Assembly (NCBI GenBank): GCA_019059635.1
Contig: JAGVRJ010000001.1
Coordinates: forward strand, 2,108,001-2,172,000
From: Proales similis
Taxonomy: Eukaryota > Rotifera > Eurotatoria > Ploima > Proalidae
Length of the DNA stretch: 64,000 bases
Reading direction: 5' to 3'
Below the pieces are notes generated by a model, which was not told where the DNA came from, ran no database searches, and saw only the letters and a program-made list of their open reading frames with translations. The position numbers and the translations under genes are program-made. Positions 2,970-44,945 of the stretch are shown in pieces (positions within the stretch are counted from its first letter, which is position 1; every line of letters starts with the position of its first letter).

Positions 2970-3762
2970 CTAAGCGAGAAAGTTACGGTTGACAAAGTAG
3001 AGCTCGCCCATGTAGAGCAGATATTCGACCAGCAGGTATTCGTTGTTGAACCGCTTCGTGTCGATTGTGACCGGCCGACCAGTTTGATACTCGCTGAGAT
3101 GGCCATGCTCGGGCACTTTGACGTCGGCCATGAAGAAGCGGGCGTCTCGTCTGAACAGCGAGAAGCACTTGTCCAACAGGCGGACGACCAGCCTGAGCTG
3201 GTCAAACACTTCCGGATGGTTCTCCAGATAGATCTGCTTCACAAAGCGACACAAGTACTCCGCACTGGCCTGCTCGAAAAAGTGCATCTCTGCGCCCTCA
3301 ATGTCGACTCAGCACAACACACTCGTCCTTCTTGGGCCGCACCGAAGCGTCGAAGCAAACAAACCAGGCGCCGTCTATTCTCCACTGACTGTGTGGCGCG
3401 TTGGCCACCTGGTGAGCCAGGCCTCCAATCCTGCGACGGTCTTTGCAATCGTAGTGCTCAAAGTCTCTGATCGAGTATTTGAAAGTGTCGTTGTAATCGT
3501 GAAGGCCGATGTGGAATTGGTATTTGCCGTTTGAACTTATTTTATTGGGTCTTTGTATTAAGTAGTTAGAAATGGCCATTTTTTGGTCGGCTTTTGATCT
3601 GTTTTGGTATTGGTATCCGCCGTCCAAGTTCCATCCAGTTGCATATTTTCCAATTATCTCAGAAGTGATCTTTTTATCGGCTATTCTGACTCTGTTCGTT
3701 ACCCATTGAAATCCAAATATCAACAATGCAATAATAATCAGTACGGAGTAATATTTGCGCAT
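2970..3762 (-). pseudogene. METTL24-like methyltransferase copy 1, broken by an internal deletion
   Basis: Reading leftward from ATG 3762, the protein has a short cytoplasmic tail, one hydrophobic anchor (SVLIIIALLIFGF) and the start of the lumenal domain up to DECVVL. It then runs out of frame. Aligned to copy 2, 287 bp are missing (bases equivalent to 8870-9156), with junction near 3307. This removes the SAM-binding core through the LKIDIEG motif and shifts the frame. The last part of the domain (MHFFEQ to VNRNFLA, 2970-3287) is still readable in another frame. The AATAAA that follows the stop in copies 2 and 3 is AATTAT here. Apart from the deletion the sequence is almost identical to copy 3, so the break is recent or the copy is refreshed by conversion. 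A short truncated protein could still be made. Confidence 0.85.
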
Positions 3763-3955
3763 TTTTATTTTAACTCTTTTAATGGGAAAAAAGGATTCAT
3801 TTTGACTTTTTCGAGATTGATTGCTCGGAGAACTTTCCCGCTCAAATGCTTCTTCTTAAAGGCAAAAAAGCGGCTACAAATGAAGCAAGCAATTTCACAA
3901 AAGACATAAATTAACTCAAACTTTAGACACATTGGAAAAATGAGTTCAAAACAAG
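3763..3955. promoter_or_regulatory. Shared promoter spacer of pair 1
   Basis: This spacer separates the start of methyltransferase copy 1 (-) from the first possible start of glycosyltransferase copy 1 (+). The divergent, closely spaced arrangement recurs in all three pairs, so a bidirectional promoter is inferred. Bases about 3787-3830 resemble the equivalent region of pair 2 (about 9546-9590), where the sequence codes for the methyltransferase N-terminus. Here that upper reading frame is interrupted by a stop, so the downstream ATG at 3762 would be used. No TATA or initiator element stands out. Confidence 0.45.
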
Positions 3956-5233
3956 ATGGCGAGCTCGATTGTTTTTACGCTCACTGGTGCGAATCGTGCA
4001 AAAGTTCAATTCGAAATTCAATCGAAGGCAACGCTCGTCGAGAAGAAATATTACCTTCTGCTATCTGCCCAAGAGATCATAATGAAATTGAAAAAATCTC
4101 TGCTTTTATTCTGGTCGCTCAATATACTTGCAGTAATTGCCATCTATTGTTTAAAACGCCCGGCCAAGCACAAGCCAGCAGTCGAGGTGCCGAGGCAAGA
4201 AAAATCGGACAAACCCGATCGATATGTTTTGGTCCAATGCCACGATTTCTCAAGATTGCTGGCCTGTAGCGGGTTTGCCGATCGACTCCGAGGAATAATG
4301 TCAGCCTACGCTTATTCGCTTATAACCGATCGTAAGCTGAAAATCAGCATTACAAAGCCCTGCGAGTTGAGCATATTTCTCAAGCCGGCCAGAATAAATT
4401 GGATCATCGAGCCAGACCTTCAGAATAAACTGGCCAATTCAACAGTCGAATTCGGACACGAGCTAGGTTTTAGGCCGTCCATAGGTCAATTCCAAAAATT
4501 CATCACCGAAACTGAGCTGCAGCAGTATGAAAGTGTTCGTCTGATTATCTTCAATTCGAATAGAAATCTATTGAGCTTTTTCTCTTCGGTGCCCAAATTC
4601 GCGGTCAAGCTTCGCCAGATCGGCTACGACCCAGCCACGTTTCAGTCGACCTTCCTATTTAGGAAGTGGTTCAACGACCTCTTCCGTCCGAGCGAGTCTA
4701 TCGAAGAAAAGCTGGCCTCGTTCAGGAACACAGTCAAACCTGCCGGAAAGAGTCCGTCTCTGATTTGCTGGCAGTTCAGAATTGGCGACAAAGTGTTCAA
4801 GAGTCAAGAGATGGCGTACACAATGAGCCAGCCTCGTGTGAAAGAATATTACGAGTTTTCGATGCGAAATCTAATCGAGCCCGAGGAAGACTATCGAATC
4901 TATGTGACGGGCGATGCGGGCGATGCGCTCGTCGACGTTGCAAGCGATTTTGTCGAGCCGAGCCGCATCGTGGCCTCGCCGGGCAAGAATGTTCATTTTG
5001 GCGATTCAAAATCAGAGCAGTGCGAAGAGTTTGTCAAGCCGGTGCTCGACTTTCTTCAGCTGCAATACTGCGACAAGGCCATTGTGAGCGCATCGAGCGG
5101 CTTCGGCATACTTGGCATTCTCAACAGAGACAGGCCGGCTCAAAGTCTTTTTCTTTATTTCACAAACGGAACCTTTGAACAAGTAACAGAGCAAGACATG
5201 CTTGACGAGGACAAATGGAAGCGCAAGATTTGA
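3956..5233 (+). CDS. NodZ/fucosyltransferase-like type II membrane glycosyltransferase, copy 1
   Basis: The ATG at 3956 gives 425 residues. The ATG at 4082 (MKLKKSLLLFW) gives 383 residues and places a signal anchor at the very N-terminus as in the other copies, so the second start is preferred. After the anchor and a short stem comes GFADRLRGIM, which resembles the conserved GD-R-G loop of NodZ/POFUT-type fucosyltransferases. CWQFRIGD, YVTGDAGDALVD and IVSASSGFGILGIL follow, as in the donor-binding half of that fold. Seven extra residues before the GFADR loop (SRLLACS) are absent from copies 2 and 3. It probably acts in the Golgi lumen; donor and acceptor cannot be read from sequence. AATAAA lies near 5275. 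This copy is clearly more diverged than copies 2 and 3, whose lumenal domains are almost identical. Confidence 0.8.
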   Translation: MASSIVFTLTGANRAKVQFEIQSKATLVEKKYYLLLSAQEIIMKLKKSLLLFWSLNILAVIAIYCLKRPAKHKPAVEVPRQEKSDKPDRYVLVQCHDFSRLLACSGFADRLRGIMSAYAYSLITDRKLKISITKPCELSIFLKPARINWIIEPDLQNKLANSTVEFGHELGFRPSIGQFQKFITETELQQYESVRLIIFNSNRNLLSFFSSVPKFAVKLRQIGYDPATFQSTFLFRKWFNDLFRPSESIEEKLASFRNTVKPAGKSPSLICWQFRIGDKVFKSQEMAYTMSQPRVKEYYEFSMRNLIEPEEDYRIYVTGDAGDALVDVASDFVEPSRIVASPGKNVHFGDSKSEQCEEFVKPVLDFLQLQYCDKAIVSASSGFGILGILNRDRPAQSLFLYFTNGTFEQVTEQDMLDEDKWKRKI

Positions 5234-5360
5234 GATACGACCAATCCTTGCTTCAATTAAAATCCATTCAATTAAAATAAACAAGAATCGGTCTTATTCT
5301 CTAATTTATCGTCTGAATATACTTTTGTTCTAAATATGCGCTGTGTGAAGAAACAAGTGC

Positions 5361-7634
5361 TCAGGCAGAATGTGCGCCTGGCGGTAGTGAAGTTATAAGG
5401 GCCTTGGCAAAAGCAGCTGCGCATAGCGACGCATATGGATGCCACTCTTTGCACGTGGTGCCGTCCTGGTAGTCGACAATGCTTCGAATGATCATGTAGC
5501 TGTCTTTACGATTTCCCTCAATCGACTCTATCACCTGATCCATGTCACAGTCGTAGCAGACGATTCCGTACTTGTCATTGAGGAACGAGCGGAGCTTCTC
5601 GTCGCGCGAGACGCGCTCACCTCCCGCCATAGGACCGAACTTGACAATGGGAAGACCCCTCTTGCGTCTGTCTTGCTTTCCTCCCCGAGGCTCTGGGTGG
5701 TCGACTTCCACTGTGTTCTTGTGCGCCACATTTAAATAGAGACGATCGTCAATCGGCCTGCGGCAGTCGAGCTCTTCTGTTTGAAGTTGTTCTATGCCAT
5801 CTTGCAGGTAGTGCTCCCAGGCGTAGAATTTCTCCGCATTCGGATCATAACTGCGCTTGATCGCTTCCGCCTGAGCGTACAATTCGTTCATAGTCGGAAA
5901 CCAAGTTTGCCTATGGATCTGGTTGCTGCTTTGATTGCGCTGCATTTCAAAACGGGCGTACACAAACTGGCCCTCGTCTGCGCCGGTCGAGTTGGGATAC
6001 GAGACGACTATGTCGCCTCGCCTCAAATGCCGCTCATAGTCGTTGTAATAGGGCATGGCTCCTCCGCAGCCGACCAGCAAGACGTGCTCAACAAACTGAA
6101 ACGCGCCTAGCAGTCTGGTGGTCATGTTGCCGCAGCTTATCTTGGCGCTTCGATCGAAGCCCGGCGTTGGCAGTTTGGTGCTCACAACTCGGTGCTTGCC
6201 TATTTGTCCGATTGTGTACAAATTCGACTCTCCCTCGGGCTTGTGTCGCACGAATGTCACTTTGTTGCTCATCATTGCGTCGACGGCCAGCTTCTCATAG
6301 TAGTTGACTGTGATGATCGCGATTGTCGGCTGCTCGTTGCTCTCCAGCTTGGGCTGATGTTGAATCATGTGAACCTCTTTGCAAGTAGATTCAGATTAGT
6401 CCAAGCACGTGCAATGAGCGTTCGGTTTCTCACCATGAGTGGCCTCTTCGGCAATATTCACAATGTTCCTTATCCAGACAAGACCGTCGTCATAGTAATT
6501 CACCAAGCCTCTTGTGAACAAGTCCCGCAGCAGATCGTAGACCACCTCAGGATCCGCCTCGGCCAATCTACAATACGGAACGAAATTAGAGCGAACCGTC
6601 GGGACAATGGCCATCGCAGCAGATGAGCTGGTTGATCTCGGTCACTTGGTCTCAGTCTGCTCACCTGGCCAACTCGTCAAGAGTGATTGCGTTCGGGAAG
6701 CCTTGTTCCAGAAACTCGAGCAGCTTGGCCGATATGATGGCCGCATACTTTTGCGGATCTTGGCTTTTTACTTTTAAACAAATGATGATTAGAACAAAAG
6801 ACGAATGAGACGAATGTGAATCTACTCGACAAACTGCAACAACAAGAAACAAGCTAAAATCGAATCTAATTTCTAGCCTCTTACAAAACAGGCTCGCTCG
6901 CCAATTTGCTCTACAAGACTACTCTAGGAGGCGAGCGACAACCTTAAACTCAATTCAATCAATCGTTTACTTTGCTCAATCTGCTCTTGCTTAAAATGCA
7001 TGACCGACGAGTTAATTTTGATCACTGTGCGGTAAATGCCGAAACAAATGATTAGGACGAGTGAAGCCAAGAAATGACCGCAAACGGCGCAACTGTGCAC
7101 TGCTCACCTAACGGCCGCTCTGGCTCGACCGCTTTCACAATCTCGATGCGAATGAGCTCGAGCGATTTGAGCGCTTTAAGTATTTGCATGCTGCGCAGCA
7201 GGAACATAAAATAGTCTTTGGGAAAGCCGTTCTTGAACATATTGTGAAAGAAACTTTCCGAGCAGGTCATTCGATCCAAATTGCTCGCCTCTGGCCGATA
7301 CCAAAATTGAACGATGCGATTTTCCTTTTGGATGGAAAATTTCAGAAAAATTCGCTTCAACGAGCTGACGAGCAATTACGTTTTGAGTCTGCTCGTTTTG
7401 AGTGTCTCTGACGACCACGTTTATCTTGAACGTGGCGTCGCTGTTGCGCTTTATTCTTGTGCCCAGCAAATGAGGCTGAATGCTATTCTTGACCAAAAAG
7501 CCCGAGAACGGCCCGGACGCCTCGTGAGCAATGCTCGCTCGCTCTCGCTCGTTCAGGTCCGATCGGCGCTCTATGATTGAAATGTTTAAATTTTTGTCGT
7601 TGCTCTCAATCGGCTGCAGCACAATGTACTCCAT
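5361..7634 (-). CDS. Winged-helix and nucleoside-phosphorylase (PNP/UDP) domain protein
   Basis: The gene is multi-exon. The last exon (6376-5361) is a PNP/UDP-phosphorylase-like domain: PTIAIITVNYYEKLAV at its start, a VGCGGAM turn, and DMDQVIESIEG followed by RSIVDYQDG, as in MTA/SAH nucleosidases. Preceding exons (about 6614-6434 and 6773-6661) hold a small helical, winged-helix-like region (DPEVVYDLLRDLFTRGLVNY). The upstream exon about 7375-7112 joins through a longer intron. Introns seen are 6433-6377 (57 bp) and about 6660-6615. The first ATG, MEYIVLQ at 7634, is the likely start, but the splice joining the first frame (to about 7390) to the next could not be fixed. The substrate is unknown. 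The gene ends convergently with glycosyltransferase copy 1. Confidence 0.75.
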
Positions 7635-8216
7635 GTCTAAGCGAAAATCCCGACAATTTGAAAATTTTTGCCTCGCAACAAGTCTGAACGCGGCCAATGC
7701 AATTCGAGCCCGTTTTTATGAAAGCCGCGATAAGATGTGACCGACCGACCGACCGACCGACCTGGTCAGTCACATCGTTAACGCCACAATCGCGTAACTA
7801 AAACGCGTCTGGCTAGGTTCCTGATAAGCTCTGTGGTGGGCCGGTTTATCGCATGAGAGCAAATTAAAACAAATCTAATTCTCTAATCATCTCGCCGAGC
7901 CGGCTATTTTGCGTTTTTTGAATTGAAAGAGTCGCGGACAAGAGAGCGCTTGATGAGTAATAAAGAGGCGGTAAAGAGTAAGAGCGCGCGGCAATACATA
8001 CAGACCACCAGCGTACAGGTAACATTTGTTCTCATAATAATATTTTCAAACTTTGAAATTAACCTTAAAATAACCTCGCGGCCTCCTGGCCTGTCATAAT
8101 GCAAATCATAATCTAAAGAGGAGGCTATGACCCGCGCGTCAATTTAACCTTGTCGTCCGGCTAGTCTCTCAAAAACCCTCAAATAGTCTGCCTCTGCTAT
8201 TTCTCATTTTAGGTAC
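7635..8216. other. Intergenic spacer with CCGA tetranucleotide repeat
   Basis: This is presumed promoter region for the leftward nucleosidase-like gene. It holds a perfect run of about six ACCG/CCGA units at 7741-7762. No coding frame with family similarity was seen on either strand. Confidence 0.5.
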
Positions 8217-8430
8217 AATTAGGAGAGATTGTCGCTCGAGCGTGGGCGATCGAGTATTAAATGAAGACGAGGGGAGCAAAGGAGAAGGAAAGAAAGAGAA
8301 GAAAAGAGAGAGAGAGAGAATAGCATAAAGATCTCGGCTAATTGTTCACCCAGTTCATGAGCGTGCCATGCGCGTTCACTCGCTCGGCTTCCTGTTCGTG
8401 TCTAATCACCAAAGAAGGGTTAATTTGTCA
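8217..8430 (-). pseudogene. Decayed duplicate of the STEEP1 3' end
   Basis: On the minus strand, 8341-8400 encodes a remnant like HEQEAERVNAHGTLMN, matching the final exon of intact STEEP1 at 13881-13819 (REQEAKRMNVRGTLMD). The match continues through the downstream GA-rich tract and a GAGCGTGG box (8238-8250 against 13711-13724). The 3' splice site and reading frame upstream are ruined, and none of the other STEEP1 exons are present. It lies directly before methyltransferase copy 2, whereas intact STEEP1 lies directly after glycosyltransferase copy 3. The remnant therefore marks the edge of the duplicated unit. Confidence 0.7.
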
Positions 8431-8524
8431 TTCGAGATGATTGAAGTTGAGCACGCGACCAGCATCAACCTGCTCTAACTGGTGTTGACAAAAAAAATAG
8501 AAACGCGATGGAAAATGAAATAAT

Positions 8525-8530
8525 TTATTT
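8525..8530 (-). terminator. Poly(A) signal two bases after the methyltransferase copy 2 stop
   Basis: The plus strand reads TTTATT (AATAAA on the coding strand) almost directly after the stop at 8534-8532. Copy 3 has the same arrangement at 11042-11037. The 3' UTR must be only some 20-30 nt. Confidence 0.6.
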
Positions 8531-8531
8531 C

Positions 8532-9560
8532 CTAAGCGAGAAAGTTACGGTTGACAAAGTAGAGCTCGCCCATGTAGAGCAGATATTCGACCAGCAGGTA
8601 TTCGTTGTTGAACCGCTTCGTGTCGATTGTGACCGGCCGACCAGTTTGATACTCGCTGAGATGGCCATGCTCGGGCACTTTGACGTCGGCCATGAAGAAG
8701 CGGGCGTCTCGTCTGAACAGCGAGAAGCACTTGTCCAACAGGCGGACGACCAGCCTGAGCTGGTCAAACACTTCCGGATGGTTCTCCAGATAGATCTGCT
8801 TCACAAAGCGACACAAGTACTCCGCACTGGCTTGCTGGTAAAAGTGCATCTCTGCGCCCTCAATGTCGATCTTGAGAACGTCCACCACTCGCTCCTTTGT
8901 CTGTGTGAGTTTTAAGATCTGCTCGAAGGAGACCAGACTGCCCCGAGTGGGCTCCCTTTCTTCCGCACCCAGTCCCAGCGCATGGAAATACCATCTGGGC
9001 GCGATCTGGAGACTGGGCGCCTCTCGGAGCTGGGGATCCAGGGATCGCACTCTCGAGAACATTTCGTGCTCGACGAACGGATCGAACGAATGCACCGTGC
9101 AGCCGTAGTCTCTGTTCATCGACTGGTCGAAGTATGGGTCCTGGTTTATTCCCAGACTCAGCACAACGCACTCGTCCTTCTTGGGCCGCACCGAAGCGTC
9201 GAAGCAAACAAACCAGGCGCCGTCTATTCTCCACTGACTGTGTGGCGCATTGGCCACCTGGTGAGCCAGGCCTCCCACCCTGCGACGGTCTTTGCAATCG
9301 TAGTGCTCAAAGTCTCTGATCGAGTATTTGAAAGTGTCGTTGTAATCGTGAAGGCCGATGTGGAATTGGTATCTGCTGTCTACGTTCGCTCGTGGCGTAT
9401 CTATTTGAAATACCTCTGATTTGGATATTTGAATAACATCTTCGGATTTGCTTATCAGTCGTGGGAATACAAAAATAATGAGCAAGGCCATCATAATCAG
9501 TAAAGTAAAGTATTTAAGCGAATTTTTTTTTACTCTTTGACCAAGTAAAAAAGGATTCAT
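8532..9560 (-). CDS. METTL24-like type II membrane methyltransferase, copy 2
   Basis: ATG 9560 gives 342 residues and starts with MNPFLLGQ; upstream in-frame codons are not ATG. A single hydrophobic segment (about residues 17-33, YFTLLIMMALLIIFVF) is a signal anchor. The lumenal domain carries GAWFVCFDA, VLSLGINQDPYFD, GCTVHSFDPF and DVLKIDIEGAEMHF. These are the features of the METTL24-like (Methyltransf_22, FkbM-related) SAM-dependent family, in which the GI-x-D and IDIEG-E motifs line the cofactor pocket. It is divergent from glycosyltransferase copy 2 across 258 bp. The stem before the domain (SEVFQIDTPRANVDSRYQ) differs from copies 1 and 3. Likely role: O-methylation of a glycan in the secretory pathway; the substrate is inferred only from the partner gene. 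Confidence 0.85.
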   Translation of the reverse strand: MNPFLLGQRVKKNSLKYFTLLIMMALLIIFVFPRLISKSEDVIQISKSEVFQIDTPRANVDSRYQFHIGLHDYNDTFKYSIRDFEHYDCKDRRRVGGLAHQVANAPHSQWRIDGAWFVCFDASVRPKKDECVVLSLGINQDPYFDQSMNRDYGCTVHSFDPFVEHEMFSRVRSLDPQLREAPSLQIAPRWYFHALGLGAEEREPTRGSLVSFEQILKLTQTKERVVDVLKIDIEGAEMHFYQQASAEYLCRFVKQIYLENHPEVFDQLRLVVRLLDKCFSLFRRDARFFMADVKVPEHGHLSEYQTGRPVTIDTKRFNNEYLLVEYLLYMGELYFVNRNFLA

Positions 9561-9818
9561 TTTGACTATTGCGAGATTGATTGCTCGAAGACAGTATAAT
9601 ATAAATTTGAGACTAAACAAGAATTTAAAAACAATACCAACTCGGGTCTCAATTTAGGTCAAATTAAGCCTCATTGGAAAAACTCTTTAAGAGATCTGAC
9701 CAACAAGATTGTCTTAGCTTACTCAAGCGTATCCGCCAAAGGGGTGCTGACTATAGGGCAAAGCTTGGAAAATATCGGTGTTGTCCAAGAAAAATAAAAA
9801 AACAGACTAAGAGAAGCG
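9561..9818. promoter_or_regulatory. Shared promoter spacer of pair 2
   Basis: A spacer of 258 bp separates divergent starts. A bidirectional promoter is inferred from the geometry. Apart from the stretch next to the methyltransferase start it does not resemble the spacer of pair 3. Confidence 0.45.
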
Positions 9819-10952
9819 ATGGTAAGATTTATAAAATCAAGGCTTATCCGTTTAATCGGTCTCTTAACAATAATCGAAGTTGCTATCTACATAAAAACGC
9901 AATTAATCGACTTAAATAAAGGCCGTTTCTATTCCACGGCTAAGCAAAAACTATTAAATAAGTCAAACAGTTTTGTAGTGTTCGAATGCCACGATCACAA
10001 CTGCGGCGGCTTTGCCGATCGTGTCAGAGGGATAATGTCCACGTACGCCTTCTCTCTTATAACAGAGCGTCAGTTGAAAATAAACATCACCAAGCCCTGC
10101 GAATGGAGCATCTTCCTCAAGCCGGCCAAAATAGACTGGATGCTTCAGCCTGATCTTATGCAAAAATGGCGCAATTCTACACTCGAATTCGAGTATTACA
10201 ACAAGCCTTCGCAGACCTTGCAACACTTTGAAGCATATTTAGAGCAGACGCAGCTCAGACGACTTGAAAATCACAACGTGGTTCGCATCAAGACCAACCA
10301 GAACTTCTTGGCGGCGTTCGCAAAAAATCAAATATTTGCGGCCAAGCTACGCCAGATCGGCTACGACCCAGCCACATTTCGATCGGTGTTTCTGCTGAGA
10401 AAGTGGTTCAACGACCTCTTCCGTCCGAGCGAGCCTATCGAAGAAAAGCTGGCCTCGTTCAGGAACACAGTCAAACCTGCAGGGAAAAACCGCACGCTGA
10501 TCTGCTGGCAGTTCAGAATTGGTGACCAAGTGTTCAAACAGCCAGACCAAGCGTTCGCAATGAGCGAGCCCCAAGTCAGAGATTATCACCAATTCACCAT
10601 TGAAAATCTAGTCGAGCCCGAGGAAGACTATCGAATCTATGTGACGGGCGATGCGGGTGGCGCGCTTGTTCAAGCAGTCCACAAGCTGATCGAGCCCAGT
10701 CGCGTCTTGGCTTCGCCTGGCGAAAACGTCCATTTCGGCCATCGTCAATCAGACAAGTGCGAAGAGTTCGTCAAGCCGGTCCTCGACTTTCTTCAGCTAC
10801 AATACTGCGACAAGGCCATTGTGAGCGCATCGAGCGGCTTCGGCATACTTGGCATTCTAAACAGAGAAAAACCGACCAAGCATCTCTTCTTTTACCAGCA
10901 TTCGCGCTTTCAAAAGATCTCCGAGCAAGAGTTGCTCAATAGACATGACTGA
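9819..10952 (+). CDS. NodZ/fucosyltransferase-like type II membrane glycosyltransferase, copy 2
   Basis: ATG 9819 gives 377 residues. The N-terminus (MVRFIKSRLIRLIGLLTIIE, then VAIYI) is a basic tail plus signal anchor. From VVFECHDHNCGGFADRVRG onward it is residue-for-residue the same as copy 3 except one K/R change. Conserved pieces are GGFADRVRGIM, CWQFRIGDQVF, YVTGDAGGALV and IVSASSGFGILGIL. Two Cys flank the loop (CHDHNC), and NITKPCEWS holds a further Cys and a sequon-like NIT. The family assignment rests on the GD-R-G-type loop and the C-terminal SSGFG segment, so the fold is fairly secure and donor specificity is not. The stop at 10950-10952 lies 92 bp from the stop of methyltransferase copy 3 on the other strand. 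Confidence 0.85.
   Translation: MVRFIKSRLIRLIGLLTIIEVAIYIKTQLIDLNKGRFYSTAKQKLLNKSNSFVVFECHDHNCGGFADRVRGIMSTYAFSLITERQLKINITKPCEWSIFLKPAKIDWMLQPDLMQKWRNSTLEFEYYNKPSQTLQHFEAYLEQTQLRRLENHNVVRIKTNQNFLAAFAKNQIFAAKLRQIGYDPATFRSVFLLRKWFNDLFRPSEPIEEKLASFRNTVKPAGKNRTLICWQFRIGDQVFKQPDQAFAMSEPQVRDYHQFTIENLVEPEEDYRIYVTGDAGGALVQAVHKLIEPSRVLASPGENVHFGHRQSDKCEEFVKPVLDFLQLQYCDKAIVSASSGFGILGILNREKPTKHLFFYQHSRFQKISEQELLNRHD
9974..10942 (+). repeat. 969-bp block nearly identical to 12520-13488
   Basis: This block covers the whole lumenal domain of glycosyltransferase copy 2 and matches copy 3 at equal length. By eye only two substitutions were found (9989 C against 12535 T; 10093 A against 12639 G). Similarity stops abruptly at both edges: the anchors upstream and the last codons and UTR downstream are unrelated. 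Confidence 0.85.
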
Positions 10953-11044
10953 GTTTGCTTTTGAAACTGATATTCTAGGTGACTTAGCAATTAAAACACC
11001 ATTTTCAAAGTAGTCCCGGTCTTGATTCTGGGTACTTTTATTGC

Positions 11045-12073
11045 CTAGGCGAGAAAGTTACGGTTGACAAAGTAGAGCTCGCCCATGTAGAGCAGATATT
11101 CGACCAGCAGGTATTCGTTGTTGAACCGCTTCGTGTCGATTGTGACCGGCCGACCAGTTTGATACTCGCTGAGATGGCCATGCTCGGGCACTTTGACGTC
11201 GGCCATGAAGAAGCGGGCGTCTCGTCTGAACAGCGAGAAGCACTTGTCCAACAGGCGGACGACCAGCCTGAGCTGGTCAAACACTTCCGGATGGTTCTCC
11301 AGATAGATCTGCTTCACAAAGCGACACAAGTACTCCGCACTGGCCTGCTCGAAAAAGTGCATCTCTGCGCCCTCAATGTCGATCTTGAGAACGTCCACCA
11401 CTCGCTCCTTTGTCTGTGTGAGTTTTAAGATCTGCTCGAAGGAGACCAGACTGCCCCGAGTTGGCTCCCTTTCTTCCGCACCCAGTCCCAGCGCATGGAA
11501 ATACCATCTGGGCGCGATCTGGAGACTGGGCGCCTCTCGGAGCTGGGGATCCAGGGATCGCACTCTCGAGAACATTTCGTGCTCGACGAACGGATCGAAC
11601 GAATGCACCGTGCAGCCGTAGTCTCTGTTCATCGACTGGTCGAAGTAAGGGTCCTGGTTTATTCCCAGACTCAGCACAACGCACTCGTCCTTCTTGGGCC
11701 GCACCGAAGCGTCGAAGCAAACAAACCAGGCGCCGTCTATTCTCCACTGACTGTGTGGCGCATTGGCCACCTGATGAGCCAGGCCTCCAATCCTGCGACG
11801 GTCTTTGCAATCGTAGTGCTCAAAGTCTCTGATCGAGTATTTGAAAGTGTCGTTGTAATCGTGAAGGCCGATGTGGAATTGGTATTTGCCGTTTGAACTT
11901 ATTTTATTGGGTCTTGGTATTAAGTAGTTGGAAATGGCAATTTTCTGGTCGGCTTGTGATGTGTTGGTGATTCGGATGAATCCTAAGATTATCAGCAGGG
12001 CCAATAAGGCTAGTAAGCCGTATTTTAGCATCATACGATTCGTTTTATGTTGAATTAAAAAAAGTTTTTTCAT
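11045..12073 (-). CDS. METTL24-like type II membrane methyltransferase, copy 3
   Basis: ATG 12073 gives 342 residues, the same length as copy 2. Anchor: MMLKYGLLALLALLIILGFI, after a cytoplasmic tail of about 13 residues. The stem (SQADQKIAISNYLI, PRPNKISSN) matches that of broken copy 1 rather than copy 2. The lumenal domain is almost identical to copy 2 and complete, with LSLGINQDPYFD, GCTVHSFDPF and LKIDIEGAEMHFF. The stop is followed two bases later by AATAAA. The gene is divergent from glycosyltransferase copy 3. Likely role: SAM-dependent methyltransferase of the secretory pathway working with the adjacent transferase (inference from pairing). Confidence 0.85.
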   Translation of the reverse strand: MKKLFLIQHKTNRMMLKYGLLALLALLIILGFIRITNTSQADQKIAISNYLIPRPNKISSNGKYQFHIGLHDYNDTFKYSIRDFEHYDCKDRRRIGGLAHQVANAPHSQWRIDGAWFVCFDASVRPKKDECVVLSLGINQDPYFDQSMNRDYGCTVHSFDPFVEHEMFSRVRSLDPQLREAPSLQIAPRWYFHALGLGAEEREPTRGSLVSFEQILKLTQTKERVVDVLKIDIEGAEMHFFEQASAEYLCRFVKQIYLENHPEVFDQLRLVVRLLDKCFSLFRRDARFFMADVKVPEHGHLSEYQTGRPVTIDTKRFNNEYLLVEYLLYMGELYFVNRNFLA

Positions 12074-12373
12074 TATTCTCTTCTTCTTAGGATGGTCAGT
12101 TATGTTGTTTAAGGTATTTGACTCGGCATGAATCTCAGAATAATCGTTTACATAGCAACCAGCAACTTGGAAACCTTTGAGCCTGTAACTGAGCGCTCAT
12201 AAAATCCATCGATTTTTTCGATACAAGTCGCTTTAAACGGAGAATCGAATGCCCAATTAAAGAAAAACAATAGTTATTTTAAGCTTTTTTGTAATTAGCA
12301 CATTTTATTCAGCTTTTTGCATTCTCGAGTTGGTAGACCTTTCATTGTATAAATACGAACACCAAGCCAAGAC
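12074..12373. promoter_or_regulatory. Shared promoter spacer of pair 3
   Basis: A 300-bp AT-rich spacer separates the divergent starts of methyltransferase copy 3 and glycosyltransferase copy 3. A TATAAATA-like element (GTATAAATAC, about 12347-12356) lies about 20 bp upstream of the plus-strand ATG and could be a TATA box. Confidence 0.45.
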
Positions 12374-13498
12374 ATGGGATCAAGAGAATTTTTACTGGCG
12401 GTTGTGGGGTCAGGGCTTTTAAGCGTGCTTCTTTATTGTATCTTGCTTAGGAAGAACCTTAGCAATGACACAATCATAACCCTTTTACATCAGGAGCCGA
12501 CTCTCGGGTCGAAAAGATATGTAGTGTTCGAATGTCACGATCACAACTGCGGCGGCTTTGCCGATCGTGTCAGAGGGATAATGTCCACGTACGCCTTCTC
12601 TCTTATAACAGAGCGTCAGTTGAAAATAAACATCACCAGGCCCTGCGAATGGAGCATCTTCCTCAAGCCGGCCAAAATAGACTGGATGCTTCAGCCTGAT
12701 CTTATGCAAAAATGGCGCAATTCTACACTCGAATTCGAGTATTACAACAAGCCTTCGCAGACCTTGCAACACTTTGAAGCATATTTAGAGCAGACGCAGC
12801 TCAGACGACTTGAAAATCACAACGTGGTTCGCATCAAGACCAACCAGAACTTCTTGGCGGCGTTCGCAAAAAATCAAATATTTGCGGCCAAGCTACGCCA
12901 GATCGGCTACGACCCAGCCACATTTCGATCGGTGTTTCTGCTGAGAAAGTGGTTCAACGACCTCTTCCGTCCGAGCGAGCCTATCGAAGAAAAGCTGGCC
13001 TCGTTCAGGAACACAGTCAAACCTGCAGGGAAAAACCGCACGCTGATCTGCTGGCAGTTCAGAATTGGTGACCAAGTGTTCAAACAGCCAGACCAAGCGT
13101 TCGCAATGAGCGAGCCCCAAGTCAGAGATTATCACCAATTCACCATTGAAAATCTAGTCGAGCCCGAGGAAGACTATCGAATCTATGTGACGGGCGATGC
13201 GGGTGGCGCGCTTGTTCAAGCAGTCCACAAGCTGATCGAGCCCAGTCGCGTCTTGGCTTCGCCTGGCGAAAACGTCCATTTCGGCCATCGTCAATCAGAC
13301 AAGTGCGAAGAGTTCGTCAAGCCGGTCCTCGACTTTCTTCAGCTACAATACTGCGACAAGGCCATTGTGAGCGCATCGAGCGGCTTCGGCATACTTGGCA
13401 TTCTAAACAGAGAAAAACCGACCAAGCATCTCTTCTTTTACCAGCATTCGCGCTTTCAAAAGATCTCCGAGCAAGAGTTGCTCAATAGTTGGCATTAG
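12374..13498 (+). CDS. NodZ/fucosyltransferase-like type II membrane glycosyltransferase, copy 3
   Basis: ATG 12374 gives 374 residues. Its anchor (FLLAVVGSGLLSVLLYCILL) is unrelated to that of copy 2, while the lumenal domain is the same apart from one residue (NITRPCEW against NITKPCEW). All motifs of copy 2 are intact. The last residues differ (NSWH here, NRHD in copy 2), because the shared block ends inside the final codons. Same catalytic domain with different anchors suggests either domain-limited gene conversion or functional diversification of Golgi placement. Confidence 0.85.
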   Translation: MGSREFLLAVVGSGLLSVLLYCILLRKNLSNDTIITLLHQEPTLGSKRYVVFECHDHNCGGFADRVRGIMSTYAFSLITERQLKINITRPCEWSIFLKPAKIDWMLQPDLMQKWRNSTLEFEYYNKPSQTLQHFEAYLEQTQLRRLENHNVVRIKTNQNFLAAFAKNQIFAAKLRQIGYDPATFRSVFLLRKWFNDLFRPSEPIEEKLASFRNTVKPAGKNRTLICWQFRIGDQVFKQPDQAFAMSEPQVRDYHQFTIENLVEPEEDYRIYVTGDAGGALVQAVHKLIEPSRVLASPGENVHFGHRQSDKCEEFVKPVLDFLQLQYCDKAIVSASSGFGILGILNREKPTKHLFFYQHSRFQKISEQELLNSWH

Positions 13499-15353: not shown

Positions 15354-18300
15354 TCAAATGCCCGAGTGCCAGTTGAACATGTTCGGCACGTTTGAGGAGA
15401 AAAAGGAACTCATTGCCGCTTGGTGTTGATGCTGAGAGAGGGCAGCCACCGCGGCTGCAGCCGCCGCGTGCGGATTAGCGTGGGGAAAGTAGCTGGCCTG
15501 GTTGATCGGAGCACTGGATGGGTATGAGCCAGCAGCGGCTGATAGGCCATACGCCTGGCCACCGCTCGGTATGTAGTAGTCTGAGAGTGCACTAGTAGCC
15601 GGAGCTTTTGAACTCGATGACGAAGGCGCCGAATAGTTTTTGGTGTTTGATGACGCTGAATGAGAATACTTTCGATTGACGGCCACCTGACTCTCGTCGT
15701 AGGAAGAGGACACAGTCGAAGAGGAGGAAGAGGAAGCAGAGCCCATCGCTCCCTTTCCTGACTTGGCATATGCATCGTAAGAGCCTGCACGTGCGCTCAA
15801 TGCCTTGGCGTCATAGGAATAGACGCTGTTCGCCGGGCCTTGAGTAAAAGGGCCCGACCTCGCCATGGGAGGCATATAGCCGCCAGGATACTGTAACTCG
15901 GTGCCACCACGTCCAGACTGATAGGGATCAGGTTTGTGGAAAAATGAACTGAGCGAGGAGGCCAGCGCTTCTGTGCCAGTTTTGTGCAGATCGTAGAAGC
16001 TGTTTGAGCTGCTTGTGAGATTGGGGAAAGCTTCCGGATAGGCAGGATAGGAAGCGGCCTGCTTTTGGCTTGAGCTCTTTTTCGACTTGTTGCTACTTGC
16101 ACCTGCGGCAGCGCTACCGCTTCTCTTTTCTTTACTCAATCCTTTGTCAACTTTGCTTGGGCCTGTGTACTCGGCCGACTGGTAGTAGTTTCGATTCGAT
16201 CGTTCATGAGGCTGCTGCTGCTGGTTCAGTGCTTGTTGCTGAGATGGCGGTGGTTGCGGATAAAAGTGATTGAGCTGCGAGGGTGTCGTGTAGGCCGAGG
16301 GCAGTGTCATGTTGCGGCCATCTAGGTTCGCATAGGCACTGTTGGCTGCCGCCGACAAATAAGGGTTGAAGCTGGGCTCTGTCTTCTTTTGAAACATCGA
16401 GACCGCGGCGGCTGCTGCTGCTGCTGCCGCTGCCTGTTCGAACGGATAGGCTGACGTGTAGGAGCCGACAACTTCGTTAGGCGAGTTCTCGTCTGAACGA
16501 TGATCCCCGTAGCCGTTAATGACCTGTTGAGGAGTAGACGGTGTTGAGTTAAAGGACTGACGATTAGACGACTGCCTGTGAGGAGAATGTCCGAGGCCGT
16601 GTTGGATTGGCGGATGCGTGCCACTCTGTTGATGCTGCTGCTGAAGTTGCGGAGTGGTAGAGTGCGAGCGCTGTAGTGGCGATGCGCTCATTCGTTGGCT
16701 TGGCATCATATTCATGCCACTGAACGCATCGTAGGCAGCCAATTGAGGACTCGATGTCTTGGACGACGCACAATACTGATGACTAGGCGCTTGCTCGACC
16801 GAGTTCGGCTTGGCGTAATTCTGGCCCGGGTAAATGGCATTCGTCGAATAGTAAGCGTTCGGCTGACTCGACGAGTTGTAATAATTTGCCGAGGACGATT
16901 GCGGCTGCTGTGAATGTTGAGATTGCTGCGCTGGCTTATCTTGATTCATCGGCGGCGATATGATTTGATGAGATGAGCCGGCCGACGAGGGATTCACGCT
17001 CAGGCCGCTCTGATGCATTTGGTTTGAGTTGCTACCGGTGCCAGACGATACCGAAGAGACAGTCGACGGAGGTGGAGTCATCACTCCGGCACTCGGACTG
17101 CTCTTGTCCTCGCACTTGCCGCTGTTTGCACTCGAGTGAAGTTTCTTCAGGTCGCTGTTCAGTATCGGATCGTTTTCAAGGTCAATGTGACTCGGGTTAA
17201 CGTTGTCTAGTTGACTCCAGTAGTTGGATTGGGTCTCGGGCAGTTCGCTATTTTCTGCAATTTGCACATCTTCTCTGAACGAATGGTGCTCATCAGAGAT
17301 TGGCTGAACCTCTTGACTGGCTCTGTGGTCATTGCCATGAACTTGGCTGTCAAACTCGCCGCTCATGGAGGCTGCTTCAATTTGATTCGGTTCTGAATGA
17401 AGCTTGCTCTCCTCCGAGTGGTCTATTTGGGACTCGATCTCGTCTTCGTCATCTAGGTTAGACGGGGCTCGAGGAGCCGGAGGAGGCGGCCCTGGCGATA
17501 GGTCACGTTCATTCGCCTCGTCGTGAATGCTCGTGTCCAGCTCGTAGGGGATTTCGAATCTTGTCAGACCAGCGTATTCGATCGTGCCTATCTCTTCGCC
17601 TTTGGCCGGCTTCTCGTCGCTCTGACTCGCACCAGTGCCGCTTACTCGACTCGATTTCGGCGGGCGTCCACGCCTCTTTTTCTCGTTGGCCACCAGGGCG
17701 CCGATAGTTTTTGGCGTCGTGTCTCTCTCCTCCAGCTTGTCGTCTATGCTGCCACCTCGCTTTCGTTTGCCGTGCTTGGGCGTCTCGTCGCCGCGTTTCT
17801 TCTTTCCCTTTTTGGCGCCTGTCAGCGACGCGATAGTTATCTCCTCTTCGAGCGCTGCTGATCCGGCGCTGGTATCTTGAGCTGGCGCCTTTTCCATGCC
17901 CTCTGGCTCGTCCTCTTTGCCCGCAATGTCAAACACAAACTCGTTAAAGTCTACTATTTCTTCGTGCCGCTCGCCTTCAACCACGAGCTCTTGGAACGTG
18001 CTCAACACAATTGTGTCGCCGTTCTCTTCGTCGCTCGGCTTGCTCGCCTCTTTGCTCGTGTTTCGTTTAACCGGTTTCTCTCTGCTTCCTTTGGGCGGCC
18101 GGCCGCGCTTCTTGGGCGCTGTCGCATGATTGTCCGGCTTTAGCGGAGTCCGAGACCGATCTTTGCTCGTCGCAGTTTTCTTCTTGCTATCTTTGATCGC
18201 TGTCGAGGGTTCGATTAGATCAAACAGAAAATCGGCGTCGTCGCTTTTCTGGTCCGATTTTGTCGATTTGCACATGACACTGATCGACTCGACCTGGTCC

Positions 18301-19952
18301 AGCACTTTGTCAATGTCGTTCAGCTCGAATCTAATCGACTCGGGCAACAGCTTTTCGGCCGACTCTTTCTTTCTGTCTGTCTGAGGCTTGCTCGGCGTGG
18401 GCGACTTGGTACGACTGCGAGCGTTGACCGATTTGTCCGCTTTTGAATTGCTCGTCGCGTTTTTCTTCTCGCCGGCATCGTCGCCGATTGTGAAAAACTG
18501 CTCGAGCGAAGGCATGCTTACAGGCTCTGGAGAAGCAGCTGCGCGCTGCTGAAGTTGACTTTCAGAGTGACTCGGTGTGAGAAGAGTTTGTTTGTGGTTT
18601 GTGACCAGCTCGGAAGTGGTGCGCACCAGGGTGGGCGCTTTAACCGGCGTGTGGCCAGGCGAGCTTGTTTTGGGCGCAATTCGTTTGCCAGCTTTAGTCT
18701 TGGCGCCGCTTGAATCTGCGTTCGACTTGGCTCTGCTCGTGTTCTGACGCTGAATGGGCACCTTGCCGTTCTGAGGAGCCACTCGGCTCAGCGAGAATAT
18801 TTGTTCCGTTTGAGGACTGGTGAGTACAACTGGTCCATTAGCCCGAGGCGACAGAGTGTTGACCGGCAGTCCGAACTCGCTCGGACTAAACACCATGGAC
18901 GCGGCTTTGGAAAGGATGTCTTGAGCGTCCATTTCATGCTTCTTGACCTCTTCTGACGCGACTGGCGCCTGAAGGCTGAGCATGGCGGGCGCTTGCGGCG
19001 CAGGCAGTATTAGCTTCTGCGTGCTGCCGCTCAGCGGCTTGGGCCGAATCTCGCGCGGCCTCTTGCCGCTCGAGTTTGAAGCGTCATAGGCCGGCTGTGG
19101 TTGTTGAGCAGGCACCACGGGCGCTGGCAGCACAATCGGCTTCGATCGCTTACTGCTCGCTTTGGGTCGGATGCATTTGGGCTGTGCTGTTGTGCTGCTC
19201 GCTTTGCTCATAATGGGCACAGTGCTCGGCTTGGGCTGTATAGGTTTGGGTTTGTGCGGCTCCTTGTCGTTAGTCGAGCTTGAGTTGGAACCGTTCAGAA
19301 CAATGGTTTGTGGTGGCTTGGCGTCGCTTTTGCCCGCTGAGTCGCTCGCATCGTCCGCTCGCATTGGAGGCACAAACGCGATGCCGTTCGAAGTAATTAT
19401 GAAGCCTCCTTGGTTTATGTTGGGTATTTGCTGTAGAGATTGAATATTGCGATTTGGCGAAGTTGTTGTTGTTGTTGTTGATGGTGGTGGAGGTGCCGTC
19501 GTGGCTGCTGCGATCGTTGACTGGTGAACGGGCTCGGACGCAGCGTTGCTGAACGAGTCGTTTGCGTTTAGACTTTCGTTTGGCGAGGCGCTCGACGAAC
19601 AAGAGGACGTGTTGAGCTGACTGCCATTGTTCAACTTCTTTTCGAGTTCGGAGTTCAATTTTTCCAGCTTGCTGACTTTTTCCTTTAATGCTTGCAGCTC
19701 GTCGACCTTGTCAAGTTTGTCGCTCAGAATGGACTCTTGGAATTTGGTGAGGAACTGCTCGAGAACAGAATTGAGCGCAGACAGCTGACTGCCTGGCTTC
19801 TCAAGGCTGGGCATCATGCGCTCAATGAGTTCGTTGACATTGGCTGCCGGGTCGGCGCAGTCGGTCCCGCTCGCAGTGTTCTGCATCAGAGAGGTCAGAG
19901 TGCTGCTCAGATCGGGCTTGCTCTCGCCGCTTCTACTGTTGCTTGTAGACAT
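15354..19952 (-). CDS. Large single-exon AT-hook, low-complexity nuclear protein
   Basis: ATG 19952 opens 1532 residues without an intron. A coiled-coil-like segment sits near residues 60-110 (LEQFLTKFQESILSDKLDKV). Long Ser/Thr/Pro-rich stretches follow, then two AT-hooks (KKRGRPPKGS and KKRRGRPPKSS) around residues 610-760 separated by basic KR patches, an acidic region, Q-rich segments, a ten-residue poly-Ala tract and a Ser/Tyr/Gln-rich C-terminus ending NMFNWHSGI. AT-hooks bind the minor groove of AT-rich DNA, so a chromatin or transcription role is likely. I do not recognise the orthologue. Composition alone could resemble several vertebrate chromatin cofactors. Confidence 0.85.
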   Translation of the reverse strand: MSTSNSRSGESKPDLSSTLTSLMQNTASGTDCADPAANVNELIERMMPSLEKPGSQLSALNSVLEQFLTKFQESILSDKLDKVDELQALKEKVSKLEKLNSELEKKLNNGSQLNTSSCSSSASPNESLNANDSFSNAASEPVHQSTIAAATTAPPPPSTTTTTTSPNRNIQSLQQIPNINQGGFIITSNGIAFVPPMRADDASDSAGKSDAKPPQTIVLNGSNSSSTNDKEPHKPKPIQPKPSTVPIMSKASSTTAQPKCIRPKASSKRSKPIVLPAPVVPAQQPQPAYDASNSSGKRPREIRPKPLSGSTQKLILPAPQAPAMLSLQAPVASEEVKKHEMDAQDILSKAASMVFSPSEFGLPVNTLSPRANGPVVLTSPQTEQIFSLSRVAPQNGKVPIQRQNTSRAKSNADSSGAKTKAGKRIAPKTSSPGHTPVKAPTLVRTTSELVTNHKQTLLTPSHSESQLQQRAAASPEPVSMPSLEQFFTIGDDAGEKKNATSNSKADKSVNARSRTKSPTPSKPQTDRKKESAEKLLPESIRFELNDIDKVLDQVESISVMCKSTKSDQKSDDADFLFDLIEPSTAIKDSKKKTATSKDRSRTPLKPDNHATAPKKRGRPPKGSREKPVKRNTSKEASKPSDEENGDTIVLSTFQELVVEGERHEEIVDFNEFVFDIAGKEDEPEGMEKAPAQDTSAGSAALEEEITIASLTGAKKGKKKRGDETPKHGKRKRGGSIDDKLEERDTTPKTIGALVANEKKRRGRPPKSSRVSGTGASQSDEKPAKGEEIGTIEYAGLTRFEIPYELDTSIHDEANERDLSPGPPPPAPRAPSNLDDEDEIESQIDHSEESKLHSEPNQIEAASMSGEFDSQVHGNDHRASQEVQPISDEHHSFREDVQIAENSELPETQSNYWSQLDNVNPSHIDLENDPILNSDLKKLHSSANSGKCEDKSSPSAGVMTPPPSTVSSVSSGTGSNSNQMHQSGLSVNPSSAGSSHQIISPPMNQDKPAQQSQHSQQPQSSSANYYNSSSQPNAYYSTNAIYPGQNYAKPNSVEQAPSHQYCASSKTSSPQLAAYDAFSGMNMMPSQRMSASPLQRSHSTTPQLQQQHQQSGTHPPIQHGLGHSPHRQSSNRQSFNSTPSTPQQVINGYGDHRSDENSPNEVVGSYTSAYPFEQAAAAAAAAAAVSMFQKKTEPSFNPYLSAAANSAYANLDGRNMTLPSAYTTPSQLNHFYPQPPPSQQQALNQQQQPHERSNRNYYQSAEYTGPSKVDKGLSKEKRSGSAAAGASSNKSKKSSSQKQAASYPAYPEAFPNLTSSSNSFYDLHKTGTEALASSLSSFFHKPDPYQSGRGGTELQYPGGYMPPMARSGPFTQGPANSVYSYDAKALSARAGSYDAYAKSGKGAMGSASSSSSSTVSSSYDESQVAVNRKYSHSASSNTKNYSAPSSSSSKAPATSALSDYYIPSGGQAYGLSAAAGSYPSSAPINQASYFPHANPHAAAAAAVAALSQHQHQAAMSSFFSSNVPNMFNWHSGI

Positions 19953-20698
19953 TGCGTCATAATACCATTGTGGAAATTTGACGCGCCGCTCTAATCTTCA
20001 ATAGCGCGAATGTCAGCCATTCAACCTGTATACGAAATTCAAAGTTAACCTCCTCAATAGCAGCTTGTTTATTAATTAAATATTATTGTAATAATTAATT
20101 AGGACGAGAGGCATTTGTTATGTGCGCTGGCACTAGTCAGGCCGCACTTATTATCTGCATAATTCGCCCATGTCGAGTCAGAATGGTCGCGAACATTTTT
20201 TTTTTCAAGAAACGCACACACACACACACACTCGTACACTGCCAACAGAACTAACTTGAGCGGAGTTGAGCTCAATGCCAAAACGGCTTTTGTTTGCACT
20301 GCCTACTCGGAATTATCCGTCCTCACACACTCTATTCGCCTTGCTCCCATACTCGGGCTCGTAATGATGCTCATTCATAATTGGCTAAACCGGCGCATTA
20401 TGCACATGCCTCATTATGTCGACGAATTCTAAATGCCCAATTAAGTATTTGCATTTTTTTTTGTAGCCTCAACCCTCAGCCTGCGATTGCCCAGACAATG
20501 TCGACCAAATAGTCTTACGGGTATTGTCAATGCGCACTTTCCCCAAACAGTCGCGTTAATTCTCCACTCTGACATGATCTCAGTTCGGAAATGAAGAGTT
20601 CGCTTGTTTTATTAGCCATCAATTTTACTTATTTCGTGCTCAATTCAGATGCGTAGAAAGGGGGGGGGGGCAATGAGTAATTTACAGTCTCTGACCGC
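19953..20698. other. Spacer: AT-hook gene 5' region and Drosha 3' UTR
   Basis: It holds a CA/AC run (20215-20231), an eleven-G run (20660-20670) and a TTTATT (20606-20611) that could end Drosha transcripts on the minus strand. No gene seen. Confidence 0.5.
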
Positions 20699-42390: not shown

Positions 42391-42501
42391 GCAAATAAAC
42401 GAGATTGAATTGGCTTTATTCAGTTGATTGATTGTGCTGCTGCGTTTGGTGTCCTAAATGAGAATGCTGATGAATTGTGGTCGTTGCTGTTGTTGACTTG
42501 G

Positions 42502-43097
42502 TCAGAGTTGGCTCGGGTCGCTAGCTGGCTTCTGGACTGGACTGGCGCCACCTGTTTGAAGTTGCTGGTTCAGATTGGCCTCCAACTCGTTCAGATGGTC
42601 GTCAATATTGTCGAGTGATCAAACAAAAATCTCAAGTTAAGGAACGAAGGACGAATTTGTGTATTGAGTGTAACGCTAAAGACAGGACTGAGCGCTCGCG
42701 TGTGTGTCGACGACGACGACGAACGCGGCTAGTTGCGCGGCTCGTCGCTGCCGCCCGACTGATTAATCAAGTCGGCGATGTTGCGCTCCAAATCATCTAT
42801 GCGACGACCCATTTCGTCGAGTGAAAGCGCACAAACAAACAAGGAAAGCAGTTAAGGCAAATAGTGACGAGATTTGAGCAGCTTGGACAGAGCGGCATCG
42901 AATCGAGTGAGTAAATGAAAGCGAATTGAAGCAAAACAAAAAAGGATATTTCTATTGATTATCTGATCGGACATGTTCTGGAAGCGGTCCTGCATCTGCT
43001 GCAACGTCACCTGAACAAAGTTGGTCAGCTCCTGCACGTTCTTGGGGTCATTGGCCGGACCGAGGGCGCTCAATTCGCGGCTACAGTTCTCCGTCAT
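42502..43097 (-). CDS. HSBP1: HSBP1 (heat shock factor binding protein 1) with two candidate U12-type terminal exons
   Basis: Exon 1 (43097-42950) codes [20 protein letters not shown], then [20 protein letters not shown] and NMSDQIINR, matching HSBP1. The expected continuation [20 protein letters not shown] lies at 42820-42729. No GT donor exists at the joint. Instead the intron starts ATATCCTT and ends AC, with CCTTAAC upstream of the acceptor: a U12-type AT-AC intron of 129 bp. Joined this way the protein is 79 residues (human 76). A second downstream exon, 42614-42502, also starts after an AC acceptor with a perfect TTCCTTAAC branch site and codes [20 protein letters not shown], giving an 86-residue isoform. 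HSBP1 is a coiled-coil oligomer that binds HSF1 and aids WASH assembly. The AATAAA for this strand lies beyond the distal exon (42418-42413). Confidence 0.9.
42821..42949 (-). other. U12-type AT-AC intron of HSBP1
   Basis: 5' end ATATCCTTT matches the minor-spliceosome donor consensus exactly. The CCTTAAC at 42857-42851 matches the branch-site core (TTCCTTAAC). The intron ends CAC at 42821. Splicing here restores the conserved INR-IDEM reading frame, and no GT-AG pair does so. Branch-to-acceptor distance is about 31 nt, longer than usual for this class. Confidence 0.85.
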
Positions 43098-43862
43098 TCT
43101 GCTCCTCAATTCTCAGACTGTGCTGCAATCCGCTTGATCTATTAATAAGTGAACCGAGTGTAATCAAGAGTGCACATATTTATAAGGCAGGATAGCTCGC
43201 GCCCGCTCTCTCTCTACAAACGCTGGCCTTAGTTACCGGCACATAATCGACCAGGAGGACGACGACGACCACAACCACCACCAACACGGCAGCCACTGCG
43301 TCTGTTTGCGTCCGCCAAACCAAAGAGATTGATTCAGTTTTCGGTGATTATATGCTAGAAAGCGGTTCTATACGCATAAACAACAAACTTGTCAAACCTG
43401 CACTCGATTAACGCTCTCGACCAGACGCCAAACAAGCCACAAAGAAGCCTCATATTCAAACTGAGCGAAGCCGGTCCGCTAAGCTTGCTCCACTAAAAAG
43501 GGCACCCAAATGAAACAATCGGCTCGTCGATGATGATGATGATATAATAAAGCACTCTGGACCGGAGCTTGCATGATTAGCATTCGCTTGCTCATTCGAG
43601 CTTAATTAAAAAGAGAGAAATGCTGGCGATCGCCGCTTCTTTCAATTGGCAGTTGTCGGGCGAAGCGAAATCTGTCCGGTGCATTTGATGCCTCTCTGAC
43701 GATGAATTATCGCTGAATTATTGCTCAAGAGGACGTCAAGTTGGCACTGCCACGTCGAATGGAAAGATCTAGCAAAAACGTGAAGCAACGATCTTTTTTG
43801 ACTTAAAAAAGCAAATCACATCGGCATTTGAGTTTTGAATTGCCAAAAATAAAGCCGAAGCA
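43098..43862. promoter_or_regulatory. Divergent spacer between HSBP1 and HSPBP1
   Basis: Both genes start here and point away from each other, so this 765-bp spacer should hold both promoters. It contains GAC and CCA triplet runs (43255-43290) and a GAT repeat (43530-43542). No canonical heat-shock element (alternating nGAAn) was evident on a visual pass. Confidence 0.4.
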
Positions 43863-44945
43863 ATGGACCCGAGCAAGTACGCGCTGATGCAAAACGTGCT
43901 CAGTCTTTCCACGGCACACACCGATCCGACGAGCTCGAACGCGGGTCGCGAAATGAGTCCTGAGGTAAGTCTGGCTCAGTTGGATGCTTTTTTTTTTGGC
44001 GCGCTCTAACAAGCGGCGATTGATTTAGCGCAAGGCCTGGCTGTCCGACGCTCTAAACTCGATGGCGGTGAACCCAAACGAGCAGATGCAGAAATGCCTC
44101 GCCGTGCTAAACAACGCGCAAGAAAAGAGCGAGAGGAAGATCGAAGCGCTTGAGACTCTGCGCGACTGGTGCGAAGACATGAACTTTGCAATCGACCTGC
44201 ACAAGATGAACGGCTACGCGACGCTGCGGCAGCAATTAAAGTCAGACGAGAGCGAGTTGCGTCTGCTCGCCTGCGAACTAGTGGCCACGTTGGCACAGAA
44301 CAACACCTACTGCCAAGAGACGCTGATGAACGACGGCTTCCTCGAGCTCATGGTCGATCGACTCAGCCACGACGACGCCGAAGTGAGAGTAAAGGCAATG
44401 TATGCCATCTCGTGTCTGAGCCGCGACTACGAGCCGATTCAGAATCGCCTCGTCGACTGCGAGCGCACGCTGAACGCGTTGCTCGACGCGCTCGACTCGG
44501 ACGTTGCCAAGCTCAAGCTAAAATCCTGCTTCCTAATCTCTTCGATTGCCGTCAATCCGAGCATAAAAGGTTCGCATTCAGTCCTCGAACGATCAAGCTG
44601 AAGTCTCTCACGTCATTTCAGAGAAGCTAACCGAGAAGCGTTTCATCGAGCGGCTCGTCTCTCTCTACCAAGAGCAAGACTCGAACGCACACGAACACAT
44701 CCTGTCCGCCATTCGAGTGCTCATCGACGAGAACCCGAAAGCGGTGCAGCAAGCGAGGCAAATGGAAAATCTCAACTTCAAGGCGATTCTGCAGCGCCGC
44801 CTAGGCCAGATTGGCACCGATCCCGCCCACAATGTAAGTCAATTCGTCCCCGCACATTCTTTCTTTGCGCAACTCAGATCACGTTCGCCGGAAGGAGGAA
44901 CGCGAGATGATTGAGGCCATGTACCAGGCGTTGATGCAAAACTGA
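43863..44945 (+). CDS. HSPBP1: HSPBP1/Fes1, Hsp70 nucleotide exchange factor
   Basis: Four exons: 43863-43964, 44029-44569, 44622-44833, 44895-44945. They total 906 nt and 301 residues. Armadillo-repeat sequence RKIEALETLRDWCEDMNFAI, then DLHKMNGY, LLACELVATLAQNN and VKAMYAISCLSRDY matches HSPBP1 and yeast Fes1. The last exon codes EEREMIEAMYQALMQN; choosing the acceptor at 44894 keeps phase and gives a 61-bp intron, while an earlier AG (44877) would end the protein after ten residues. The protein clamps the Hsp70 nucleotide-binding domain and speeds ADP release. AATAAA near 45015 follows. Confidence 0.92.

Follow-up and report, generated by a model that had tools for sequence, protein, structure and literature searches.

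Does the HSBP1 gene of Proales similis, a tiny marine rotifer, have one last exon or two between which splicing may choose? HSBP1 is a heat-shock regulator and a coiled-coil protein. We analysed the window, which is the whole 64,000-nucleotide stretch of DNA containing the gene, and our genome-wide searches covered 15 contigs (32,716,893 bases). An initial annotation had described a second terminal exon downstream of the conserved one and had interpreted it as a tandem-duplicated, mutually exclusive U12-type alternative. The features of the locus, in the order of transcription, are as follows.

42950..43097, minus strand: coding part of HSBP1 exon 1, from the ATG at 43097, ending in phase 1
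42941..42949, minus strand: U12-type AT-AC 5' splice site ATATCCTTT, one donor for both acceptors
42851..42859, minus strand: proximal U12-type branch site TGCCTTAAC, one mismatch, branch A 31 nt from the exon
42821..42822, minus strand: proximal AC acceptor
42729..42820, minus strand: proximal (conserved) terminal exon, 30 residues, stop TAG
42660..42665, minus strand: AATACA, a putative poly(A) signal of variant form lying between the acceptors
42636..42644, minus strand: distal U12-type branch site, exact TTCCTTAAC, branch A 22 nt from the exon
42615..42616, minus strand: distal AC acceptor
42502..42614, minus strand: candidate distal terminal exon, 37 residues, stop TGA
42415..42420, minus strand: poly(A) signal AATAAA, past both terminal exons

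The distal U12 branch site at 42644-42636, the AC end at 42615 and the in-frame segment running to the TGA at 42502 were all found where the initial annotation had placed them. The claim of a shared phase also held, as both last exons are in phase 1; they are neighbouring and similar in length. The donor at 42949-42941 fits the U12-type 5' splice site ATATCCTT. Since each last exon has its own stop, the two would be mutually exclusive. As for the residues said to match between the exons, the ID start and the LE-N positions align without gaps, whereas the GG pair is shifted by one residue. The sole AATAAA within 43200-42400 was at 42420, past the distal exon as had been claimed, and the variant AATACA was at 42665. 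From these signals and from the evidence below, it is likely that the gene has two mutually exclusive U12-type last exons that share one donor, arose by duplication and are both coding. The distal segment itself is probably a functional second terminal exon of HSBP1.

Exon 1 by itself scored 44.7 bits against the Pfam HSBP1 model (PF06825; gathering cut-off 28.6). The predicted spliced products are of 79 aa via the proximal exon and 86 aa via the distal exon. The 79-aa product scored 93.1 bits and matched human HSBP1 (PDB 3ci9) at E 1.9e-16, and the 86-aa product scored 64.5 bits and matched the same structure at E 2.4e-12. The Pfam pass of the 86-aa product is no proof of the distal exon because exon 1 alone already reaches 44.7 bits; addition of the distal exon lifts that score by 19.8 bits. 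A genome search with the proximal-form HSBP1 protein (E up to 1) gave one locus, found via exon 1 and the proximal exon, and did not recover the distal exon. A paralogue elsewhere was considered and rejected, as outside exon 1 and the proximal exon there were just weak matches (E 0.2 and 0.3).

Among 26 homologues in the protein collection, 19 (P0003, P0004, P0006-P0021 and P0023) carry NRNIL directly after exon 1, which is the reading of the donor ATATCCTT in the exon 1 frame. Because these proteins read on as the donor would, a U12-type donor at this position of HSBP1 is probably common to other animals. The remaining seven homologues (P0001, P0002, P0005, P0022, which is from Nicrophorus, and P0024-P0026) have a second half of the proximal type. 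A second half of the distal type was found in 0 of these 7 informative homologues; the 19 that end at the donor are uninformative on this point.

Head to head with HSBP1 on the plus strand lies a gene at 43863-44945 (limits read by eye), with the two coding starts 765 bases apart. Its second exon scored 25 bits against Fes1, the Hsp70 nucleotide exchange factor (cut-off 22.3) and also matched HEAT repeats. No perfect three-unit heat-shock element was found in 43098-43860. Elsewhere in the window, 2838-13498 holds repeated opposed frames, nearly identical by eye, that are methyltransferase-like and fucosyltransferase-like; one copy of each was scanned and matched Methyltransf_22 and XG_FTase, both below cut-off. 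On the minus strand, 15354-19997 contains a low-complexity frame of 1547 residues in a stretch with an AT skew of -0.29. The window also encodes Drosha; in the 120 matches listed for it out of 1397 (7992 candidates scored), the best one with a named organism was from the rotifer Brachionus calyciflorus (75% identity), while the mite Tetranychus urticae reached 51%.

Rfam models searched against the whole genome gave one match over cut-off for each of four minor spliceosomal snRNA genes: U12 (56.1 bits, C11:298375), U6atac (81.3 bits, C2:808194), U11 (86.7 bits, C5:1464735) and U4atac (74.0 bits, C7:1022947). The same four models gave 0 matches on 14 control genomes. The U11 copy begins AAAAAGGG. 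The U12 copy carries GTAAGGA, which, read by eye, pairs 8 bases with the distal branch site and 6 with the proximal one. The AT-AC intron pattern ATATCCTT-(30-60)-CCTTAAC gave nine candidates in the genome (L058-L066) compared to 0 in the reversed control, and the GT-type version with GTATCCTT had 0 genome matches compared to 1 in the control; pattern matches of this kind do not amount to a census of minor introns. The surviving minor introns may thus be biased to AT-AC. The first AC after the branch A was 8-15 nt away in seven of the nine candidates and 26 and 49 nt away in the other two, and the HSBP1 spacings of 31 (proximal) and 22 nt (distal) exceed the range of the seven. None of the 9 candidates had another branch word, one mismatch being allowed, in the 800 bases downstream. 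HSBP1 has two branch words, and its own donor-branch spacing falls outside the 30-60 pattern. We also located 48 sites at which TTT comes no more than 6 bases after ATATCCTTT, and eight of these sites had a branch word and an AC or AG in the 1.5 kb downstream. Apart from HSBP1, two of the eight (L011 and L042, putative introns only) have two branch words each, all of them mismatched and farther from the donor.

The claim of a tandem duplication found support in one part of the DNA and not in the other. Between branch site and junction, both acceptor regions contain the words CCTTAACT, TTTGTTTG and TCACTCGAC, each time in this sequence, including 9 bases that span the acceptor junction. This likeness was matched by 1 of 8000 random window segments, those overlapping the gene having been left out. 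For acceptor and exon together, no random segment (0/8000; best random 47 versus 49) and no shuffle (0/1000) did as well. For the exon bodies alone there was no signal, the likeness at the DNA level being equalled by 1519 of 8000 random segments. In the window, only the two HSBP1 acceptors have CCTTAAC with CACTCGAC 5-40 bases after it. Genome-wide, CCTTAAC N{10,40} ACTCGACA had three matches including HSBP1 and the reversed-pattern control had one, so this pattern alone is not unique. These results suggest that the acceptor region was duplicated and leave the exon bodies, by this measure, as unlike each other as chance would make them.

One could suppose that acceptor and exon were copied together and that the distal copy, unused, is eroding as part of the proximal form's 3' UTR. 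The dissimilar exon bodies fit this reading, as does the position of AATAAA past the distal exon, since a segment ahead of that signal may be no more than 3' UTR. At the protein level, some results count against the preferred reading of two coding last exons: by itself it gave no match in the Pfam scan, it was not among the listed window matches to a profile of nine proximal-type C-terminal halves, and a protein search found no homologue of the distal exon. Joined to seven exon 1 residues, the distal exon matched 3ci9 weakly (E 0.59). Against decay stands what has been kept at a DNA identity of 29/60, namely the exact branch site, the AC, the phase, 37 open codons, the codon use and five core positions of the coiled coil. 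Against a codon table built from five frames of the window (2,108 codons), the score of the distal exon was +0.326 bits per codon in frame, compared to -0.257 and -0.512 in the other frames; exon 1 reached +0.361 and the proximal exon +0.476. A score as good was found in 9.7% of 40,795 open 36-codon windows, genes included. The core positions are I, M, I, L and I in the proximal exon and I, I, L, L and L in the distal one, and at a sixth the hydrophobic residue is lost (proximal Leu, distal Gln). The same heptad style that had been claimed was seen at five core hydrophobic positions.

Neutral decay was simulated in 20,000 runs in which the proximal DNA was mutated to the observed identity, assuming that the proximal sequence is the ancestor and with the tail started from the distal sequence. 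The 37 open codons survived in 27.9% of runs. The open frame survived together with the likeness score in just 0.305% and together with the five core positions (picked for counting after the sequence was known) in 0.68%; only 0.035% of runs kept all three. Collectively, codon use and retained heptads support a coding distal exon, and we consider a decaying copy unlikely.

A coding distal exon might also have arisen without duplication, through capture of a coding segment by a new U12-type acceptor and convergence of that segment on a coiled coil. Over 20 residues, the distal and proximal exons align ungapped with a score of 27 and 5 identities. When the distal residues were shuffled, their likeness to the proximal exon gave P 0.0008, and 0.007 once the initial two residues were dropped; in a shuffle that preserved the hydrophobic positions, the likeness was not significant (P 0.30). 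As judged from the two translations, the exons resemble each other as two coiled coils in register would, and the case for duplication consequently rests mainly on the acceptor. Both this result and the dissimilar DNA of the exon bodies are what an independent origin predicts. The ordered words shared across the acceptor, with the 9 bases over the junction, speak against it, as do the first residues and the phase, which are identical in both exons. An independent origin is quite improbable. The initial interpretation is supported by the U12-type, same-phase anatomy and, as to coding, by codon use and heptads; the duplication that it proposed is supported by the acceptor region and not by the exon bodies.

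The likeness score also bears on how easily such a segment could be met with by accident. A score of at least 27 against the proximal exon was reached at 3 of 127,640 window positions, 66,230 of which were open for 20 codons, and these three were the proximal exon, the distal exon and one other. Among the 3,496 open positions that follow an AC, only the proximal and distal exons reached it. The exact TTCCTTAAC occurs once in the ~128,000 window positions of both strands, as the distal branch site, and 11 times if at most one mismatch is allowed. RNA folding, considered and set aside as a selector between the acceptors, predicted the distal branch site to be more open (0.46-0.48) than the proximal one (0.14-0.30), which is weak evidence, and both AC sites to be mostly paired (<0.06). 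That the branch-like word and the open frame met by chance in a 3' UTR and are never spliced is very improbable: the 11 near-matches, the two branch words likewise found downstream of the donor-like L011 and L042, the long branch-to-exon spacing and the paired AC sites would agree with it, but at equal base frequencies the 309 bases past the proximal stop should contain only ~0.001 exact branch words, and the rarity of the matching frame (3/127,640, both exons included) multiplies with this.

Two coding last exons behind one donor thus remain the preferred reading, and we propose the following arrangement. The single AT-AC donor would be joined to either of the two U12-type acceptors, each followed by a last exon that ends in a separate stop. 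Use of the proximal exon would give the ordinary C-terminal half of HSBP1. Use of the distal exon would give a variant of this half: the coiled coil would run on in register, and its surface residues and tail would differ. The distal copy probably arose by duplication of acceptor and exon and would then have diverged strongly while selection kept its frame open and its heptad pattern in place. We infer that the choice is a competition. The proximal acceptor would have the advantage of being transcribed first and the handicap of a weaker branch site, with its mismatch and its spacing of 31 nt; the distal acceptor would offer a perfect branch site, 8 pairs with U12 and a spacing of 22 nt. The AATACA at 42665, 21 bases upstream of the distal branch site, could terminate the proximal mRNA ahead of the distal acceptor. 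If it is unused, the proximal mRNA would include the distal exon in its 3' UTR.

In other cells, p38 stabilises U6atac and raises the expression of genes with minor introns, according to the available part of PMC3728624. By analogy, the minor spliceosome might act as an HSBP1 isoform switch, in which the two U12 acceptors compete for the AT-AC donor through branch strength and spacing, and a change in minor-spliceosome activity, such as stress-raised U6atac, shifts the balance between coiled-coil forms that differ in assembly. We regard such a switch as doubtful, and stress control of the choice is a guess from this analogy.

Compared to ordinary HSBP1 (PF06825, 3ci9), which corresponds to P. 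similis exon 1 and the proximal exon, the distal exon would swap the second coiled-coil half for a diverged segment with a different tail. Minor introns with mutually exclusive exons are described for Mapk9 (JNK2) and Tmem87b in the part of PMC6717393 available to us, and are also mentioned in that of PMC6865273. As in HSBP1, a minor intron takes part in the exclusive choice; as far as those excerpts go, Mapk9 and Tmem87b involve internal exons and major-type sites as well, whereas HSBP1 has terminal exons with U12-type acceptors and one U12-type donor. Among human clusters of mutually exclusive exons, five cases of incompatibility between U2 and U12 acceptors are given in the available text of PMC5740500. 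There, as is likely in HSBP1, splicing class helps exclusivity; in that text the classes differ and terminal exons are surveyed separately, whereas the HSBP1 acceptors are of the same class and exclusivity comes from the stops. The alternative 3' splice sites at mouse minor introns (CAT7, PMC6717393) resemble HSBP1 in having one minor donor and more than one acceptor. The accessible portion of that article describes them as cryptic, whereas the second branch site and AC of HSBP1 lead to a candidate coding exon that resembles the first. A pan-eukaryote survey (PMC10639083) names bdelloid rotifers as poor in minor introns, and the available part of its main text makes no mention of monogononts, Brachionus or Proales. 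A duplicated U12-type last exon of HSBP1 was not described among the literature matches listed for HSBP1 and for rotifer minor splicing.

If the distal exon is used, this locus would present a duplicated exon with its own U12-type acceptor, at which the minor spliceosome alone picks between two coding ends. With its compact animal genome, P. similis would offer a small test system for competition between U12-type acceptors and for the response of that choice to heat stress.
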